A DNA stretch of 64,000 bases from Natrononativus amylolyticus. GTDB lineage: Archaea; Halobacteriota; Halobacteria; Halobacteriales; Natrialbaceae. Below, piece after piece: positions 1-8,300 of this stretch. The notes below the pieces were generated by a model. It saw only the letters and a program-made list of their open reading frames with translations, had not been told where the DNA came from and made no database searches. Location of the stretch: contig NZ_CP101458.1 in assembly GCF_024362525.1 (NCBI RefSeq), positions 2,542,001-2,606,000 of the forward strand. Reading direction: 5' to 3'. Each line of letters starts with the position of its first letter. The first letter of the stretch is position 1. A program made the translations under genes and the position numbers.

Positions 1-742
1 CCGTCTTGTGGGCGATCTCGACGTCGTCGGTTTCGGTCGGCAGGTACCGAGCGGCCATCGAGGCGTCCGTCTGTTCGGCGAGCGGGACGAGCAGGCGCTC
101 GGAGGCCGCCGGGGACAGCCGCTCGCCGCGGTGGATCCCCCCGAGGAGTCGCGCGCAGTCGAGCGGCGTGACCGTGTTCAGGTACGGCCCCTCGGGAACC
201 GACGCCCCCGCGAGCGGCTCCGTCCGCATCATCTTCCGCCGGAGCGCCGTCCCTTCCAGCCCCAGCCGATCCGCACACGCGGCGATCCGCTCGAGGCCGA
301 GGTGGTCGATCAGTTCGTTCGTCGCCGTGTTGTCGCTGATGGCGATCATCGCGTACGCACACTCCTCGAGGGTGGGGCGGGGCGACTCGAGCAGGTGGAA
401 CAGGCCGGCGCCGCCGACGCGGTTCTCCGGCGAGATCGGCCCGCGCTCGGAGAGTTCCTCGAGGCGGCCGTCGTAGCGCTCGTAGAGCGCGTAGAGGAGC
501 AGGAGCTTCACGACGCTCGCGCTGCCGAACCGCTCGCTGTGCGCCCGCGCGACGATCGGGTCCCCTTCGGGGGCGTCCGCGTCGCCGACGTACACCCCCA
601 GTCGCCCCTCGAGCCCGTCGGCGACGGCGTCGACGTACGTCCCGAGTTCGGCCGCCGACCGCAGCGACGGTGGCGGACGGGCCACCGTCCGACCGCGCTC
701 GATTCCGCCGTCGTCGCGCCCGAAAGCGTCGCTTCCGTCCAT
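1..742 (-). CDS. Class A beta-lactamase-like serine hydrolase (3' end cut by window edge)
   Basis: Reading leftward from ATG at 742 gives about 247 residues with no stop before the window edge. The family signatures are visible: SVVK (Ser76-Lys79, nucleophile and general base), SDN (Ser136-Asn138), and an HKT that begins the third (KTG-like) box right at the edge. No signal peptide or lipobox is visible, so the enzyme is probably cytoplasmic. Class A folds hydrolyse beta-lactams or act as D-Ala-type peptidases; archaea are not the target of beta-lactams, so a peptidase or amidase role fits better. It is divergent from the PLP decarboxylase gene at 829, with an 86 bp shared intergenic region. 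An in-frame upstream GTG exists; the ATG is preferred. The family call is fairly safe, the substrate unknown. Confidence 0.8.
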   Translation of the reverse strand, partial: MDGSDAFGRDDGGIERGRTVARPPPSLRSAAELGTYVDAVADGLEGRLGVYVGDADAPEGDPIVARAHSERFGSASVVKLLLLYALYERYDGRLEELSERGPISPENRVGGAGLFHLLESPRPTLEECAYAMIAISDNTATNELIDHLGLERIAACADRLGLEGTALRRKMMRTEPLAGASVPEGPYLNTVTPLDCARLLGGIHRGERLSPAASERLLVPLAEQTDASMAARYLPTETDDVEIAHKT

Positions 743-828
743 ACGGTGCGTCCGGTCGCGGACCACCAGAACCGTGACCCTCGCATGCTAGGGCCTCCCT
801 TTTCACGTGACGTGGGCATGGCGAACGT

Positions 829-2139
829 ATGCACCTCGAGGCACGGCGAGCGCGGCTTCTCGAACGGGAGTCGGCGCTCCGGTCGCCGTTCGAAACGCCA
901 GTCTACGTCTTCTGGGAGGACGACATCAGGGAGAACTACCGGCGCCTGCGTGGCGCCCTCGACGACCACTACCCGGACTCCGCGATCCACTTCGCGGTGA
1001 AGGCGAACTACAATCCCGGCATCCTCTCGGTGCTCCGCGACGAGGGCTGTCGCGCCGAAGTGTACGCCGGCGGCGAGCTCACCGCGGCCCTCGAGGCCGG
1101 CTTCGATCCGTCGGAGCTGCTCGTGACCGGGATGAACCGCCGGCCGGCCGACGTCGAGCGCGCTCTCGAGTGCGGCGTCGAGCGGTTCCTCGTCGACAAC
1201 GCGACCGAACTCGAGCGGCTGATCGAGATCGCGACCGACCTCGAGCGCCGCCCGCAGGTGCTGATTCGCGGCAACCCCTCCATGGAGGTGCCGACTCACC
1301 CCGAGGTGGCGACGGCGACCCACGAGACCAAGTTCGGGCTGGACATCGACTCGGGCCGGGCGATGACCGTCGCCGAGCGGGCCGTCGACTCCGCCGCCGT
1401 CGACCTGACGGGTGTCCAACTTCACATCGGCAGCCAGATCAAAAGCGCTGAGCCCTACGGCGTCGCCGCGCGGGCGATGTGCGGGTTCGCCGCCGAGATC
1501 CGCGACGAACTCGGCGTCGAGATCGACGTCCTCGACCTCGGGGGCGGCTTTCCCGTCTCCTACGACGAGGACGTTCCCGCCGCCGAAACGATCGTCGAGC
1601 GGATCGCCGACACCGTCGCCGAGGCGACGGCCGAGGCAGGACTCCCGGCGCCGACGCTCTACCTCGAGCCGGGCCGGCGGCTCGTCGGCAACGCCGGCAC
1701 CCTGCTCGCGACCGTCGGCGTCGTCAAGGAGACCCCCTACCGGACGTTCGCCGTCCTCGACGCGGGGACGAACGCCGTCTCCTCGTACTGGCCGTACCCG
1801 ATCTACGCCCTCGCCGAGGGCGAGCCGACCGAACGCTACCACGTCGCCGGTCCGCTCTGTTACTCCGGGGACGTGATCGCCGAAGACGTCCCCCTGCCGC
1901 CGCTCGAGCGGGACGACGTGATCGCCGTCGACCGGATCGGCGCCTACTCGCTGGGCAGCGCCTCGAACACGAACGCCCAGCCGAAGCCGCCGGTCCTGCT
2001 CGCCCGCTCGAACGGCGACGTCGACGTGATCCGCGAACCCGAGCGCTACGAGGACGTCATCTCTCACGCGGCGGTCCCCGCCGACCTCGCCGACGCGGCG
2101 CCGGTTCCGTCCGCGACGGACGCGGAGGGTGGACGATGA
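829..2139 (+). CDS. Fold-type III PLP amino-acid decarboxylase, diaminopimelate/ornithine decarboxylase-like
   Basis: A 436-residue protein of the alanine-racemase-fold decarboxylases. Lys58 in HFAVKANYNP is the PLP Schiff-base lysine, HIGSQI and GGGFPVSYDED follow the barrel pattern, and EPGRRLVGNAG is the phosphate-binding and dimer region. The C-terminal LCYSGDV and GAYSLGSA correspond to the Cys and Tyr regions that complete the active site across the dimer. The usual YNSRPRP-type loop of DAP decarboxylase is replaced by NTNAQPKP, so the substrate may differ (DAP, lysine, ornithine or an N-acyl derivative). Its last codons overlap the next gene as ATGA (2136-2139), so it is translationally coupled to the NlpC/P60 peptidase. 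In a murein-peptide pathway it could turn released DAP into lysine; that is inference. Confidence 0.85.
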   Translation: MHLEARRARLLERESALRSPFETPVYVFWEDDIRENYRRLRGALDDHYPDSAIHFAVKANYNPGILSVLRDEGCRAEVYAGGELTAALEAGFDPSELLVTGMNRRPADVERALECGVERFLVDNATELERLIEIATDLERRPQVLIRGNPSMEVPTHPEVATATHETKFGLDIDSGRAMTVAERAVDSAAVDLTGVQLHIGSQIKSAEPYGVAARAMCGFAAEIRDELGVEIDVLDLGGGFPVSYDEDVPAAETIVERIADTVAEATAEAGLPAPTLYLEPGRRLVGNAGTLLATVGVVKETPYRTFAVLDAGTNAVSSYWPYPIYALAEGEPTERYHVAGPLCYSGDVIAEDVPLPPLERDDVIAVDRIGAYSLGSASNTNAQPKPPVLLARSNGDVDVIREPERYEDVISHAAVPADLADAAPVPSATDAEGGR

Positions 2140-3149
2140 CGACGCCGGCCGATCTCGCCCTCGAGCGCGCCGCGGCGGTCGCCGCCCCCGACCGCCGGGT
2201 CGAGCCGTTCGACCTCGAGGCGCGGGTCGAATCCGACGGCGTCGTCCTCGAGGGAGTCCTCGGAACCGAGTGCGTCCGGCGAGCGGTCCGCCGGGAACTC
2301 GACCGGACCCCCGGCGTCGGAGTCGTGCGAGACGAGACGGTCGTCCTGGAGGGAGACGGCGAGGCGCTGACGGTGAGCCGCGACGCCGTTCCCGTCCGCG
2401 GCGCGCCGGAGACCGACGCCGAGCAGGTGACCCAGGCGCTGTACGGCGCCGCCCTCACCGGCTACGACCGGGAGGCGGGGTGGCGGCGGGTCCGGGTCTC
2501 GGACGGCTACGTCGGCTGGGTCGAGCGCGAGCACCTCGAGCGGCCGGCGGACGAAAACGGCGGCTCGTGGACCGCCGATGCGGTGATCACCGCCACACCG
2601 GCGACGCCGCTCGAGGGCGGGCACGGAACGCCCGCCCGCCTCCAGGCCGGAACCGGCTGTCGGTTCGAGGGCGAATCCGACGGGGTCGCGACCGTCGCGT
2701 TTCGGACCGGCGCGAGCGCCCGCCTTCCCACCGACGCGGTGCGCTCGCTCTCGGAGGCGACGCCGGCAGCGCCCGTCGGAACCGGCGAGGACGTCGTCGC
2801 TGTCGCCAGGGGCTTCCTCGAGACGCCCTACGAGTGGGGCGGGATGCGCGCCGACGGCATCGACTGCTCGGGGCTCGCCTGGGTGTCCTACGCCACCCTC
2901 GGCGTCGTCCTCCCGCGAGACGCCGACCAGCAGGAGACGGTCGGCGCCGACGTCGACCGGGACGACCTCGCTCCCGGCGACCTCCTCTTTTTCCCCGGCC
3001 ACGTCGCCATCAGCCTCGGCGGGAGCGAGTACGTCCACGCCTACGGCGACGCCGACGGGGTGACGATCAACAGCCTCGACCCCGACGACGACCGCTACGT
3101 CGAGTCCCTTGACGACTCCCTGCGGACGACGAAGCGGCTGCTCGAGTAG
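2136..3149 (+). CDS. NlpC/P60 cysteine peptidase with SH3-like domains (YkfC-like gamma-D-glutamyl endopeptidase)
   Basis: A 337-residue protein starting at the ATG of the ATGA overlap with the upstream decarboxylase. Residues about 25-75 are a small alpha/beta segment resembling a BON domain, 85-137 an SH3-like domain (ALYG...GYVGWVE), about 148-205 a second degenerate SH3-like region, and 218-337 the NlpC/P60 domain. The catalytic Cys244 sits in GIDCSGL, with His289 (PGHVAIS) and His301. PYEWGG before the Cys is typical of YkfC/YkfC-like enzymes, which cleave L-Ala-gamma-D-Glu-diamino acid peptides in the cytosol. There is no signal peptide, consistent with action on imported peptides. A substrate other than murein, such as poly-gamma-glutamate, is possible. 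Confidence 0.88.
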   Translation: MTTPADLALERAAAVAAPDRRVEPFDLEARVESDGVVLEGVLGTECVRRAVRRELDRTPGVGVVRDETVVLEGDGEALTVSRDAVPVRGAPETDAEQVTQALYGAALTGYDREAGWRRVRVSDGYVGWVEREHLERPADENGGSWTADAVITATPATPLEGGHGTPARLQAGTGCRFEGESDGVATVAFRTGASARLPTDAVRSLSEATPAAPVGTGEDVVAVARGFLETPYEWGGMRADGIDCSGLAWVSYATLGVVLPRDADQQETVGADVDRDDLAPGDLLFFPGHVAISLGGSEYVHAYGDADGVTINSLDPDDDRYVESLDDSLRTTKRLLE

Positions 3150-3157
3150 GCGCCCGC

Positions 3158-5293
3158 TCAGTCCACCCGTCGAAGCGAGAGGACCGCCGTCGAACACGCT
3201 TCCACGTCGAGGTCGACCGCGACCGTCTCCCCCCGAACCGCGAGCGCGGCGTCGACGTCCGATGGGGACTCGAGGTCGAGTTTACCCTCGAACGGGCGCT
3301 CGAGGTCGAGACGACACTCGTGATCGACGGTCGACCAGTTCGTGACCACGAGAGCGGTCTCGTCGGCCGAAACCCGCCAGTGGCCGGCCAGCACCGCCTC
3401 GAGGGCGACGTCGTAGCGGCCGTGGCGGTACATCTCCCACTCGACGGTGTGGGTCGGCACGCCCGCGACCGCGGGGTCCCGAAGGCGTTCGCCCAGGGTG
3501 ATCGCGCGAGCGCGCCCCTCGAGCGCCTCGACGGCGCGACGGAGGTACCGCCGCTCTGTCTCGTGTTCGTCCTCGAGCAGCGCCTCGGCGACGTAGTGGC
3601 TGAGCCAGCCGAGCTGGCCCCCGAAGACGAGACACTGGGCGACTTTCGACCGGAACGCCGCGCCCGACTCGAGGTCGCACCCGAAGAACTGCCGGCCGAA
3701 GGTGGCGCAGTAGTCGCCGTACACCGCGGGAAACAGCGGAATCAGGCCGTCACGCGCGGAGTTCCACATGAGGTAGCCCGCGAGGCGATCCATGTACGGT
3801 TCGGCGTTGTTCTCGGTCGTCACGGCGAACTCGGGTCGGGTTTCGTCGGCGTCAGCCCGGATTCCAGCGAGGAGGTCGCGGTAGCCGTCGACGCCGTAGC
3901 TCCCCCCGCCTGGCGGGTGGCCGTGGTCCGTCGCGACGCAGTCCGGCGGCGCGTACGCTCCGAGCTGGTCGAGGTACACCGCACTCGCGGCCGTCTCCTC
4001 GCGGAGTTGGGTGACGACGTCCCGGATCGTCTCGCGCCACGCCGAAACGGCGGGACACATCGCGACCATCCGCTGGCCGCCGTAGCTCTCGTAGGCGAGC
4101 GCGCGATCGACCGGCTCGAGGCGGGCGCTCGCCACCCGCGCGGCGGCGTCCTCGAGCCCGCGGCGTCGCCACGTCTCGCCGTTCGGGTCGGCGATCCGGG
4201 CGTTGACGTACGGCATCACCCGGACGTCGTCGGCCTCGAGGGCGGCCACCGCCTCGAGCCACCCCTCGCGGGCCGGGAAGTAATCGGGATAGTCGACGTC
4301 GAACGGCCCCTGGTGCCAGGTGTACCAGTGGACCCCCGTCGGCACCGGGAACGCGTCCCGGAGGCGCTCGAGGAGGGCGAGGTCGCCCTCGATATCGGTC
4401 TCGCGCGGGGCGAGCAACCACCAGAGCCGACGCTCGAGGAACCACTCCGGAACGTCCCCCCGATCGGCGAGCGGTCCGGCGTCGGTCCAGCCGGCGCCCG
4501 CCGTCGCCCACCGGCGGTAGCGCCGGGCGGCGTCGTACCAGTCGCCCGCAACCGTCGCGGTCACGACCGGGTACGGAAACGAGACCGTCGTCGCCGGCTC
4601 GCCGACTCCCGGAGGTCGATGACTGATCTCGAGGCCGAGCGCGCCATCGGCGGGATCTGTCGCGAACGACTTGGGTCGGCCCCGCGGGTCGTGGGCCGCG
4701 ACGTAGGCGCCGCCGTCGCCCCCGAGAACCGAGAGGAACTGCATGTTACAGCGGGCGCCGGGATACCGGGCCTCGTAGGTCGCGTCGTCGGGGTTCTCGA
4801 GTGGCTCCCTGACACACCGCCCCCAGCCGTCCGGCAGCACCAGTTCGGTGTCGCCGCCGGTACCGCTGTCGACGACCACCTCGTCGACGGCAGGTAGCGA
4901 CACCGACTCGAGACTCGCCGCGACGCCGTCGACCGCGAGTTCCGCGCTCCAGGAGACCGCGCTGGAGCCGTCCTCGAGCCGTCCGGAGAGCGTCGTTGAG
5001 ACGGTTCCCGACTCCGCTTCGAACTCGAGGGGTTCTTCGCGCCAGCGCAGGGTCACCTCGGCGCCCGTCGCGGTCGCGGTGCGGTCTGCGGTGAACGTCG
5101 CGCCCGCCCCGTTTGCCGTCGCGGCCACGCCGTCCGCGTCGCGGAACGCGGCCGTCCAGAACGCGCCGTCGTCGGCGCGGAACGCGACCCTTCGCTCGCC
5201 GTCTGCGAGAATCAGTTCCGAACCGCCGCCGCCGACGGTACACTCGAGGCCCTCGACCGAAACCGACACCGACTCGTCCGTCTGCGGAGCCAT
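3158..5293 (-). CDS. Large glycoside-hydrolase-like protein (TIM-barrel, DUF6259-like)
   Basis: A 711-residue protein converging on the NlpC/P60 gene with an 8 bp gap. The N-terminal 250 residues are beta-rich (sandwich-like). The middle section looks like an (alpha/beta)8 barrel: GVHWYTWHQGPF, VMPYVNARI, AVYLDQLGAYAPPDC and FAVTTENNAEPYMDRL are strand-end motifs with acidic residues suited to glycoside hydrolysis. The last 100 residues are again beta-rich. There is no signal peptide. I resemble it to DUF6259 proteins from memory, which is not certain; substrate unknown. The ATG at 5293 is preferred over the in-frame GTG at 5329, because that GTG lies inside the terminal repeat of a mobile repeat element (5318-5438) and the extra residues look unrelated. 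The context beside peptide-salvage enzymes hints at sugar-peptide degradation. Confidence 0.7.
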   Translation of the reverse strand: MAPQTDESVSVSVEGLECTVGGGGSELILADGERRVAFRADDGAFWTAAFRDADGVAATANGAGATFTADRTATATGAEVTLRWREEPLEFEAESGTVSTTLSGRLEDGSSAVSWSAELAVDGVAASLESVSLPAVDEVVVDSGTGGDTELVLPDGWGRCVREPLENPDDATYEARYPGARCNMQFLSVLGGDGGAYVAAHDPRGRPKSFATDPADGALGLEISHRPPGVGEPATTVSFPYPVVTATVAGDWYDAARRYRRWATAGAGWTDAGPLADRGDVPEWFLERRLWWLLAPRETDIEGDLALLERLRDAFPVPTGVHWYTWHQGPFDVDYPDYFPAREGWLEAVAALEADDVRVMPYVNARIADPNGETWRRRGLEDAAARVASARLEPVDRALAYESYGGQRMVAMCPAVSAWRETIRDVVTQLREETAASAVYLDQLGAYAPPDCVATDHGHPPGGGSYGVDGYRDLLAGIRADADETRPEFAVTTENNAEPYMDRLAGYLMWNSARDGLIPLFPAVYGDYCATFGRQFFGCDLESGAAFRSKVAQCLVFGGQLGWLSHYVAEALLEDEHETERRYLRRAVEALEGRARAITLGERLRDPAVAGVPTHTVEWEMYRHGRYDVALEAVLAGHWRVSADETALVVTNWSTVDHECRLDLERPFEGKLDLESPSDVDAALAVRGETVAVDLDVEACSTAVLSLRRVD

Positions 5294-5317
5294 TTCCGGA
5301 TCGTACGGAACCGAGGG

Positions 5318-5438
5318 TATAGTAGCCACTGAAAGTCACTGCACACTGCTCGCGGAGGCTCGCCCGAAGCCGCCCCCACCGCGCCGGTTTCGGGCGTCGC
5401 GTGCGAGCAGTGTGCAACCCGTTTCAGTTGTTACGATA
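5318..5438. mobile_element. MITE-like palindromic element, copy 1
   Basis: About 121 bp bounded by imperfect inverted repeats: left TATAGTAGCCACTGAAA, right (reverse-complemented) TATCGTAACAACTGAAA. Inside, CACTGCTCGC and GCGAGCAGTG pair, so the element folds into a long hairpin. It has no coding capacity. A second copy with nearly the same sequence and ends lies at 48282-48405. It sits immediately upstream of, and partly overlaps, the possible 5' end of the glycoside-hydrolase-like gene. Confidence 0.8.
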
Positions 5439-5576
5439 TCAGTCCCGGTGGAAGCGACAACCAGGTCGAACTCACCGTGACTCGTCCATTGTTGGGCCGG
5501 GATTCATAAGCCGACCCCGACAATCGCTCGCCATGCACGCACGTCCACGACGAACCGACCGCCGATGGGGGAAGCG

Positions 5577-6662
5577 ATGATCGTCGACAGCGTCGACGTC
5601 TTCGAACTCGATCTCGCGCTGACCGACGCCTTCGAGATCTCGCTCGGAACCAAAGAACGGGCGGCGAACGTCCTCGTCCGCATCGAGACCGACTCCGGAA
5701 CCGTCGGCCACGGCGAGGCCGCCCCGCTCGAGACGATCACCGGCGAGACCCAGGCGAGCGCGGCGGCGGCCGCACGAGCGGGGGCGGCGGTCCTCGAGGG
5801 CGGGGACCTCCGAAACCGGCGCGGCCTCGTCTCGGAGCTTCGGAGCGCGCTTCCAGGATCGGTCTCCGCGATTCTGGCCCTCGAGACCGCCTGCTACGAC
5901 GCCTACTGTCGCGAGCGGGGGATCGCCCTGGCGGAGTGTTTCGGCGGGAAGCCGACGCCCGTCCGGACGGATATTACGATCTCGATCGTCGACGCCGAAA
6001 CCGCGGCCGCCGAGGCCGAGGCGGCGATCGAGGGCGGTTTCGACGAACTCAAAATCAAGGTCGGCGGCGACCTCGCTGACGACCTCGCGCGCGTCGCGGC
6101 GGTTAGAGAGGTCGCCCCCGACGCCGCGGTCAAGGTCGACGCGAACCAGGGCTGGACGCCCAAGAAGGCGATCCGGTTCGCCGATCGGGCTCGCGCCCGC
6201 GACTTCGACCTCGAGTTGCTCGAACAGCCCGTCCACCGCGACGACATCGCGGGGTTGAAGCGAGTCACCGACGCCGTCGACGTTCCCGTCGCGGCCGACG
6301 AGGCGGTCTTCACGCCCGCCGACGCGACCCGGATCGCGCGCGAACGGGCGGCCGACGTCGTGAACATCAAGCTCGCGAAGTCGGGACTCACCGACGGTGC
6401 GGCGATCGCCGAGATCGCCCGCGGCGCGAACCTCGAGTGTATGGTGGGCTGCATGCTCGAGTCCGCCCTCGGCCTGCACACCAGCGCCCACCTCGTCGCC
6501 GGGCTGGGCGGCTTCGCCTACGTCGACCTCGACGGCAACCTCTCACACGCCGACCGGCTCACGGACGTCCCGCGCGGACCGGTGCTCGACGTCGAGGGGC
6601 CGGGTCACGGCATCGTCCCCGACGCGGACGTCCTCGCGGACCTCGAGGACGCCGGCCGATGA
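5577..6662 (+). CDS. Enolase-superfamily dipeptide epimerase (L-Ala-D/L-Glu epimerase-like)
   Basis: A 361-residue protein of the muconate-lactonising subgroup. All catalytic elements are visible: the KxK pair in ELKIKVGGD, metal ligands Asp in VKVDANQGW, Glu in LELLEQPV and Asp in VAADEAVF, and the second-face lysine in NIKLAKSG. Near the C-terminus VDLDG supplies the DxD motif with which dipeptide epimerases grip the substrate's amino group, after MVGCMLES. The start MIVDSV at 5577 is preferred; ATG 5565 would add four residues. It is coupled by ATGA (6659-6662) to the next gene. Known relatives interconvert L-Ala-D-Glu and L-Ala-L-Glu in murein recycling; an N-acyl-D-glutamate racemase (DgcA-like) role is the main alternative. 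Confidence 0.88.
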   Translation: MIVDSVDVFELDLALTDAFEISLGTKERAANVLVRIETDSGTVGHGEAAPLETITGETQASAAAAARAGAAVLEGGDLRNRRGLVSELRSALPGSVSAILALETACYDAYCRERGIALAECFGGKPTPVRTDITISIVDAETAAAEAEAAIEGGFDELKIKVGGDLADDLARVAAVREVAPDAAVKVDANQGWTPKKAIRFADRARARDFDLELLEQPVHRDDIAGLKRVTDAVDVPVAADEAVFTPADATRIARERAADVVNIKLAKSGLTDGAAIAEIARGANLECMVGCMLESALGLHTSAHLVAGLGGFAYVDLDGNLSHADRLTDVPRGPVLDVEGPGHGIVPDADVLADLEDAGR

Positions 6663-7744
6663 GCGCCGCGGGCGGAACGGAGCCGTTCGAGGTCGGGGAG
6701 ACGGCCGACGCACCCCGCGTCCGGGCACTGCTCGAGGAGGGCCTCGAGCGGGAGCGTTACACCGGCGCGGTCGCGGTGTTCGGCGGACCCGACGAGCCGC
6801 CGGCGCTCGAGGCCGTCGGCCAGCCCTCGCCGACCGACGACCGGCCCGTCACGGGCGAGACGCCGTTCGACGTCGCCTCGCTCACCAAACCGATCGTGAC
6901 GACCACCGCGTTCTTCCGACTGCTCGAGCGCGGCGACCTCACGCTGACGGATACGGTGGGCGATCACGTGCCGGCCCTCGAACGCCGGCGCCGCGGCGAG
7001 ATCCCGCTGCACCGGCTGCTGACCCACACCTCGGGGCTCCAGCCGTACGCGTTTTCCGAGGAGTGGTCGAGCCGGGAGGAGGTTCTCGAGGCGCTGTACG
7101 ACCGCCACCTCTTCGACCGGCGGATCGGCGACGGCTTCGTCTACAGCTGTCTGAACTACGTTCACCTGGCCGAGGTGCTCCGCCGGGTGACCGGCGACTC
7201 GCTCGCGGCCCTCGCCGAGGAGCACGTCCTCGAGCCGGTGGCGATGAGGGGAGCAAGCCTCGGTCCATACGATTCGCCCCCGTCGACGGGCGTGGTCGCG
7301 ACCTACGACCGCGAGTACGACGGCCGCGGCGAGATCGTAAACGAGGTCCACGACCCGATCGCGAACGCGATGGGCGCCGAGAGCGGCAACGCCGGCCTGT
7401 TCGCCTCCGGCCTCGACGTCGCGCGGTTCGCGCGCTCGTTGCTGGCAGACGCCGGGGGCGCGGGGCGGGTGCTGTCGGCCCCGACGGTCGACTGCCTGGC
7501 GGTCCGGCGAAGCGGAACCGAGACCGCCTCGCAGGGCTACGGCTGGCGCGTCGCGACGGACCTGATTCCGGCTCCCCAGTGGTCCGGGCGGTCGATCGGT
7601 CACACCGGGTTTACGGGGACCTCGCTCTGGCTGGATCTCGAGGCCGGACGCTTCGCCTGTCTGCTCACGAACGCCGTCTACCACGACGTCCAGCTCTACC
7701 GGTTCCGCCAGCGCTACCACGCGATCGTACCCGCCCGCGGCTAA
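6659..7744 (+). CDS. Class C beta-lactamase/PBP4*-like serine hydrolase
   Basis: A 361-residue protein starting in the ATGA overlap with the epimerase gene, so the two are almost certainly co-translated. Motifs: SLTK (VASLTKPIV) with nucleophile Ser and Lys, YSCLN as the Tyr-x-Asn box, and HTGFTG as the KTG-equivalent box. No secretion signal is visible. The family includes AmpC-type lactamases, D-aminopeptidases, DD-peptidases and esterases; homologues sit in bacterial murein-recycling operons. Here a D-amino-acid peptidase or amidase acting with the epimerase is the economical guess. An esterase cannot be excluded. Confidence 0.83.
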   Translation: MSAAGGTEPFEVGETADAPRVRALLEEGLERERYTGAVAVFGGPDEPPALEAVGQPSPTDDRPVTGETPFDVASLTKPIVTTTAFFRLLERGDLTLTDTVGDHVPALERRRRGEIPLHRLLTHTSGLQPYAFSEEWSSREEVLEALYDRHLFDRRIGDGFVYSCLNYVHLAEVLRRVTGDSLAALAEEHVLEPVAMRGASLGPYDSPPSTGVVATYDREYDGRGEIVNEVHDPIANAMGAESGNAGLFASGLDVARFARSLLADAGGAGRVLSAPTVDCLAVRRSGTETASQGYGWRVATDLIPAPQWSGRSIGHTGFTGTSLWLDLEAGRFACLLTNAVYHDVQLYRFRQRYHAIVPARG

Positions 7745-7793
7745 CCGCCGGTCGGACGAAAACCCTTTTCGGAGTCGTCAGCGAACTCGAGTC

Positions 7794-8300
7794 GTGACGC
7801 GCACCCGAGAGATTCGACGGGCGGCGCAGACGGACGCCGCGGCCATCCGCGATGTCGCCCGCGAGAGCTGGCACGCCGCCTACGACGACCTGCTCGGGAG
7901 CGATACCGTCGACGCCGTCGTCGACGACTGGTACGCGATCGACCGCCTCCGGAGCGCAATCGGGGCGTCGAGCCACCACGTTTTCGTCGCCGGCGAGGTC
8001 GTCGGCTTCGGCCACGCCAGCCCGTGGGAGGGAGCCCCCGACGTCGCCCACCTGACGCGGCTCTACGTCCACCCCGCCTTCTGGGGCGACGGCGTCGGCT
8101 CGCACCTGCTCGAGCACCTCGACGCCGCTCTCGCTGGAGAGGGGTACGAGCGGCTGCGACTCGAGGTGTTCGCCGAGAACGACGTCGGCGTCGGCTTCTA
8201 CGAGTCGCGGGGGTTCGACCGACTCGAGACGATCGAGGAGGAGTTTCTGGGTGAGACGTACGACGTCGCGGTCTACGGGCGGCCGATCGGCTCCGAGTGA
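7794..8300 (+). CDS. GNAT-family N-acetyltransferase
   Basis: A 168-residue protein starting with GTG (reads MTRTREIRRA). The GNAT fold is shown by HLTRLYVHPAFWGDGVGSHLL, whose beta4 strand and Q/RxxGxG/A-like loop (WGDGVGS) bind acetyl-CoA, and by the later LRLEVFAENDVGVGFYESRGF, the beta5-alpha4 region typical of the RimI-like branch. It follows the serine hydrolase by 49 bp on the same strand, so it may be read with the cluster. The acceptor is unknown; amino-acid N-acetylation, such as of D-glutamate, would suit the neighbourhood but is inference. Confidence 0.85.
   Translation: MTRTREIRRAAQTDAAAIRDVARESWHAAYDDLLGSDTVDAVVDDWYAIDRLRSAIGASSHHVFVAGEVVGFGHASPWEGAPDVAHLTRLYVHPAFWGDGVGSHLLEHLDAALAGEGYERLRLEVFAENDVGVGFYESRGFDRLETIEEEFLGETYDVAVYGRPIGSE

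Follow-up and report, generated by a model that had tools for sequence, protein, structure and literature searches.

What use could an archaeon without murein have for enzymes of murein-peptide breakdown? The question is raised by a stretch of 64,000 nucleotides from Natrononativus amylolyticus (contig NZ_CP101458.1, G000:C1:2542001-2606000 of a 3.99 Mb genome), here called the window, which opens with genes for a YkfC-type peptidase, a dipeptide epimerase-like protein and a LysA-like decarboxylase. An original prediction, made from the DNA sequence, held that the archaeon imports bacterial murein fragments and breaks them down. This is strongly supported: an oligopeptide (Opp) transporter and an S13 peptidase gene adjoin the window genes, the set co-occurs in other haloarchaea, the peptidase carries the YkfC signature, and an amidase and a second S13 peptidase carry export signals. 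From this genome evidence, the locus is very probably a haloarchaeal cluster for the import and breakdown of murein peptides.

Gene layout

The cluster extends to the left of position 1, and the peptidase, epimerase and decarboxylase genes make up its right half. All seven genes named in the original prediction are present where it placed them, and each clears the Pfam cut-off for its family (Orn/DAP decarboxylase, SH3-NlpC/P60, DUF6259, MR/MLE enolase superfamily, PF00144, GNAT and PF13354; DAP is diaminopimelate). Both of the ATGA couplings that it described are borne out, between the decarboxylase and YkfC genes at 2136 and between the epimerase and S12 genes at 6659. The window genes are:

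1-766, minus strand: PBP-A/class A-like serine enzyme (PF13354, Beta-lactamase2, 1e-45), 3' end left of the window
829-2139, plus strand: LysA-like fold-III decarboxylase whose distal pocket is altered (TIGR01048, 327 bits)
2136-3149, plus strand: YkfC-type gamma-D-Glu-L-diamino acid endopeptidase carrying a BON-like domain at its N-terminus (PF00877, PF18348)
3158-5329, minus strand: DUF6259 glycosidase-like protein, probable passenger (PF19773, 1.5e-69)
5565-6662, plus strand: enolase-superfamily dipeptide epimerase-like protein (match to 1jpm YkfB, 1e-67)
6659-7744, plus strand: S12-type serine hydrolase, PBP4B/class C-like (PF00144, Beta-lactamase, 2.5e-48)
7794-8300, plus strand: GNAT acetyltransferase, probable passenger (PF00583)

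To the left of the window, in the coordinates of the left-flank locus L002 (from which 18000 is subtracted to give window positions), are:

L002:9434-11143, plus strand: SBP_bac_5 binding protein
L002:11215-12165, plus strand: Opp permease 1
L002:12241-13299, plus strand: Opp permease 2
L002:13296-14321, plus strand: oligo_HPY ATPase 1
L002:14374-15669, plus strand: oligo_HPY ATPase 2
L002:15659-17011, plus strand: S13 D-Ala-D-Ala carboxypeptidase, overlapping the second ATPase gene
L002:17077-17778, minus strand: HTH_10 regulator, between the S13 and PF13354 genes
L002:1174-3195, minus strand, farther left: S9 peptidase
L002:3317-4906, plus strand, farther left: amidohydrolase of D-aminoacylase type

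In full, the PF13354 gene occupies L002:17846-18766 on the minus strand, with its true start possibly near window position 685. An ABC peptide transporter or a DUF1611 gene had been suggested as possible to the left of position 1. The transporter is there, and is a complete predicted Opp type with a binding protein, two permeases and two ATPases. There is no DUF1611 gene in that flank; the three copies in this genome lie elsewhere, and in several other haloarchaeal genomes DUF1611 is found near YkfC.

The YkfC peptidase

The window holds the only NlpC/P60 gene of the genome. In an alignment of 20 haloarchaeal YkfC sequences, C244, H289 and H301 are invariant, as are Y125 and D262, the signature residues (Tyr118/Asp256 as defined by Xu et al., PMC2954226). 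Y232, W234, D243 and S245 are also invariant and A263 nearly so, and thus the haloarchaeal proteins retain both the published signature and the S1-site residues. The available text of that paper places the YkfC subfamily in four bacterial phyla, and archaea are not named in it. The AlphaFold2 model of the window protein has a pLDDT (predicted local distance difference test score) of 91.5, and its best structural match is B. cereus YkfC (3h41; Z 27.4, root mean square deviation 2.3, 252 residues).

The first 75 residues (window 2136-2370) form an extra domain, predicted to be alpha-beta-beta-alpha-beta, and most bacterial YkfC matches start only past it. It has a match to BON, below threshold, in four proteins, and is possibly a membrane tether holding the enzyme near the importer.

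In the YkfC tree the haloarchaeal sequences group together as a clade (99/97) next to those of Zixibacteria and Trueperaceae, with the root not fixed. The simplest reading of this single clade is a single transfer of YkfC from bacteria. It is worth adding that one homologue (L059:9415-10599, genome G056) opens with a signal resembling those of the twin-arginine translocation (Tat) pathway (TRRTVLQTAGVAATVANLGG) and may, unlike the others, be exported.

Conservation among haloarchaea

Co-occurrence was searched in 391 genomes of the class, from 86 genera. YkfC is present in 28 of them (15 genera). S13 is found in 15 genomes and the cluster-type decarboxylase (counted at no less than 57% identity) also in 15, every one being among the 28 with YkfC, and 14 genomes have both. 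Counted by genome, the hypergeometric P for restriction to YkfC genomes is about 8e-20, and counted by genus it is about 1e-8. Neither value is corrected for phylogeny; the genus figure is the fairer, since related genomes are not independent.

Within Natrialbaceae the gene order is SBP-OppBCDF-S13-HTH10-LysA-YkfC-epimerase-S12, and the cluster is also present in the family-mates Natronorubrum texcoconense and Natrialba hulunbeirensis. The genes are physically together in four families, with their order reshuffled in the three beyond Natrialbaceae, where M55, DUF1611 and S9 genes join them. That the genes are reordered and yet still held together argues for a functional unit. The set is conserved and the neighbourhood is not unique to one genome.

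M55 is present in 15/28 YkfC-positive genomes and in 0/28 YkfC-negative ones, and Amidase_2 in 15/28 and 3/28 respectively, the negative set being a convenience sample of 20 same-family and 8 other genomes. No Amidase_3 was found in the 56 genomes examined.

Several candidates were rejected as markers or members. The S66 LD-carboxypeptidase also occurs in many YkfC-negative genomes, and the epimerase on its own occurs in 54/391 genomes, often linked to DUF1611 and without YkfC. DUF6259, the glycoside-hydrolase-like protein, and GNAT, both of which had been counted as parts of the system, occur in none of the clusters examined in relatives and look like passengers. Among these clusters, only that of N. 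amylolyticus has a minus-strand DUF6259 gene separating YkfC from the epimerase.

The LysA-like decarboxylase

The window decarboxylase passes the TIGR01048 equivalog cut-off of 297.9, as do four cluster relatives, and it retains the PLP (pyridoxal phosphate) Lys and the HxGSQ, EPGR and GAY motifs. All cluster-type copies, however, lack the Arg of RPxxY and the Glu of CExxD in the LysA distal pocket: RPxxY is replaced by SS[YH]WP, and CExxD by CY[ST]GD or similar. Both motifs are canonical in 1twi and in the organism's own biosynthetic LysA, which is encoded in the dap operon described below. In a cyanobacterial enzyme, docking puts the Glu of the CE pair at the substrate, and most mutants are nearly inactive (PMC12599289). 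Given the loss of these residues, we do not file the window enzyme as LysA. A separate dapA-B-D-lysA-F operon lies elsewhere in the genome, and the proposal that DAP is decarboxylated to lysine is unsupported in that form.

The two lost residues presumably read a free L-centre. Within a stem peptide, meso-DAP (mDAP) is tied into the chain through its L-centre, while its D-centre, at which LysA decarboxylates, is free. The loss would be explained by a substrate whose L-centre is engaged, for example DAP in a peptide, and together with the separate dap operon it suggests that the substrate may be modified or peptide-bound DAP.

Two variants should be mentioned. The single LysA near YkfC in locus L058 keeps both distal residues and is of biosynthetic type. 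LysA-like enzymes also occur in two YkfC-negative genomes, G298 (L086:7785-9065) and G300; the G298 copy combines CYSGD with a different distal motif, LAQQSV, and perhaps represents a further substrate class.

The epimerase-like protein

The DxD substrate motif reported for the epimerase is present (YVDLDGN). The catalytic KxK and Lys, the metal ligands and DxD are kept in 13/14 haloarchaeal homologues, the exception (L049) being a distant paralogue. The position of YkfB Arg24, which we take to lie in the 20s loop and to contact the Glu side chain, is Gly in the window protein and is not Arg in its close homologues. The NCBIfam equivalog cut-offs are missed (NF041118, 270.9 of 500; PRK15129, 113.5 of 343), and NCBIfam did not resolve the dipeptide epimerase from the DgcA type. 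With Arg24 replaced and the cut-offs missed, L-Ala-D-Glu as the substrate cannot be upheld as it was stated. The epimerases of the Natrialbaceae clusters form a clade of their own (99/100) in the epimerase tree, which does not indicate a substrate.

Outside the cluster, the epimerases closest to it (48-64% identity) sit beside a DUF1611 gene, a pairing that occurs in many haloarchaea lacking YkfC and that suggests N-acetyl-D-Glu racemase as an alternative role. In G032, G115, G162 and G282 the epimerase is in the cluster and there is no DUF1611 of the epimerase-linked type, so that the epimerase there must work without that partner. A second epimerase of N. amylolyticus, 57% identical to the first, directly follows a DUF1611 gene in a DgcN-DgcA-like arrangement (L067:5785-8003; G000:C1:369784-372002).

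The serine enzymes

Class A and class C beta-lactamase-like genes had been described in the window. Both are present (PF13354 and PF00144), but the first may in fact be a D-Ala peptidase. In the PF13354 family SxxK, SDN and KTG are invariant and the Glu166 region is not conserved; in the window protein that region reads RTEP, and the model has a pLDDT below 50 at 180-189. The fold matches PBP-A of Thermosynechococcus (2j7v) at Z 30.8, tied with true class A lactamases, so that the resemblance is not to PBP-A alone. PBP-A has the class A lactamase fold and is a DD-carboxypeptidase and endopeptidase (PMC11189452), the D-Ala peptidase activity being that of PBP-A itself.

The S12 hydrolase, whose gene is retained in Natrialbaceae clusters, has PRK03642 (PBP4B) as its best NCBIfam match, below cut-off. 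The cluster S13 protein scores 318.7 bits in Pfam against a cut-off of 22.8, and SxxK, SxN and KTG are all present.

Export and the proposed route

The window enzymes have neither a Tat motif nor an obvious hydrophobic signal, as had been predicted (judged by eye and by motif, with no dedicated predictor). The Opp binding protein carries a Tat motif with a lipobox, as in a Tat-lipoprotein, and the second S13 protein of the genome (C1:2965511) has a Tat signal. Some 34 kb to the left of the window, L169:1960-2850 encodes a Tat-exported Amidase_2 protein (N-acetylmuramoyl-L-alanine amidase). The protein suits YkfC, which needs the free N-terminal L-Ala that such an amidase makes. An M55 DppA-type D-aminopeptidase homologue lies at C1:22678.

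The proposed route would begin outside the cell, where the Tat amidase would free stem peptide with an N-terminal L-Ala from bacterial wall debris or from bacteria, and the Tat S13 D-Ala peptidase would act on the same wall material. The freed peptides would be taken up by the lipoprotein-fed Opp transporter. Once in the cytoplasm, the peptides may have D-Ala trimmed off, or D-Ala links opened, by S13, the PBP-A-like enzyme and the S12 hydrolase, and YkfC would cut the bond between gamma-D-Glu and the diamino acid, giving L-Ala-D-Glu and DAP or DAP-D-Ala. The epimerase would convert the D-Glu part to the L series, the M55 enzyme would deal with D-Ala peptides, and the LysA-like enzyme would decarboxylate the DAP unit, free or joined to another residue.

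A bolder version has the route complete from wall to cytoplasm in some haloarchaea, with the decarboxylase re-tooled for DAP still joined to another residue, such as DAP-D-Ala or stem peptide. We put this forward tentatively, as possible but doubtful. If true, DAP peptides would become lysine peptides ahead of their final hydrolysis.

As a side observation, Tat-exported Amidase_2 proteins (L169:1960-2850, L172-L186), some with SH3 or PG_binding_1, are common in YkfC haloarchaea, and may represent additional antibacterial wall hydrolases.

Weighing the alternatives

Several points weigh against murein-peptide salvage. The epimerase and the decarboxylase lack the residues that mark canonical YkfB (Arg24) and LysA. 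The amidase and M55 genes are unlinked to the cluster in this genome, and the Halobacterium YkfC occurs without the rest of the set, which implies that YkfC does not always need it. There is no LD-carboxypeptidase in the cluster, and the only S66 (LdcA/MccF-like) gene of the genome, C1:1502221, looks frame-broken. On this last point, chlamydial YkfC also cleaves the tetrapeptide, releasing mDAP-D-Ala (PMC9928106), and so the route could run without an LD-carboxypeptidase. The S66 match (L171:1611-2090; G000:C1:1502110-1502589) ends after 83/121 positions, which suggests a frame shift, through either a pseudogene or a sequencing error.

The alternative that survives best is a broad catabolism of peptides and D-amino acids, with murein as only one of several substrates. 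The DUF1611-paired epimerases of YkfC-less haloarchaea fit it, as do those YkfC genes that stand alone. Since S13, the decarboxylase and YkfC co-occur tightly, and four genomes keep the epimerase in the cluster without its DUF1611 partner, we regard it as unlikely.

It is quite improbable that the cluster acts not on murein but on other D- or gamma-linked peptides, such as poly-gamma-glutamate or D-residue peptides of brine organic matter. Poly-gamma-glutamate is made by some Natrialba, several clusters have D-aminoacylase-like and S9 peptidase genes within them or close by, and the altered epimerase and decarboxylase would be in keeping with another substrate. But a D-Ala-D-Ala peptidase confined to YkfC genomes, an exported N-acetylmuramoyl-L-alanine amidase enriched in them, the invariance of the residues by which YkfC recognises free L-Ala and gamma-D-Glu, and the same gene set in Clostridia all speak for murein.

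Detoxification or signalling, in which the enzymes would neutralise beta-lactams or murein fragments without feeding the cell, could draw on the two beta-lactamase-like genes and the adjoining HTH_10 regulator, but is highly improbable given that archaea lack the murein-making target of penicillin, that Glu166 is not conserved, and that a full importer with decarboxylase and epimerase indicates catabolism.

Comparison with known systems

Murein-peptide salvage, the reading preferred here, has its closest parallel in the dppABCDE-ykfABCD operon of Bacillus subtilis, with which the locus shares a linked peptide ABC importer, a dipeptide epimerase and a cytoplasmic SH3-NlpC/P60 YkfC, as well as an M55 DppA homologue in the genome. 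The host, however, is an archaeon without murein; its cluster adds S13, PBP-A-like and S12 genes and the LysA-like decarboxylase, has no S66 gene where the operon has YkfA, and its M55 gene is unlinked. Chlamydia trachomatis likewise imports stem peptide (OppABCDF) and cleaves gamma-D-Glu-mDAP in the cytoplasm with YkfC (PMC9928106), but recycles its own peptidoglycan, whereas for the archaeon the source must be other organisms.

Clostridial YkfC loci have the same neighbourhood, with the epimerase, OppBCDF, a class A-like serine enzyme, YkfC and in some cases M55, but mostly without S13 or the decarboxylase; their full-length YkfC matches are only about 25-36% identical. One Zixibacteria locus holds S13, LysA, YkfC and the epimerase within about 8 kb. 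Since these bacterial loci hold its gene sets, the archaeal cluster has the look of a murein-peptide system adopted from bacteria.

A 2025 paper described archaea whose exported wall hydrolases kill bacteria, with peptidoglycan scavenging by archaea left open (Strock et al., PMC12352652). Woldo and Danwoldo (PMC12352652, PMC12356512) are likewise Tat-exported haloarchaeal enzymes acting on the bacterial wall, but they belong to M23 and glucosaminidase families, import or use of the products is not described, and scavenging is posed there as a question.

Implications

No description of murein-peptide salvage in archaea was found in the literature searched, most subscription journals lying outside it. 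Such salvage is known in bacteria; new, as far as the searched papers show, would be its presence in archaea that have no murein, together with the extra D-Ala peptidases and the altered decarboxylase. The cluster suggests that bacterial wall material nourishes some archaea, which bears on the question (PMC12352652) of whether archaea attack peptidoglycan in order to feed, and its conservation makes that question directly testable. If this is true, the bacterial wall would be food for organisms that have none, forming a link between the domains in brines, and the decarboxylase would be an unusual one.
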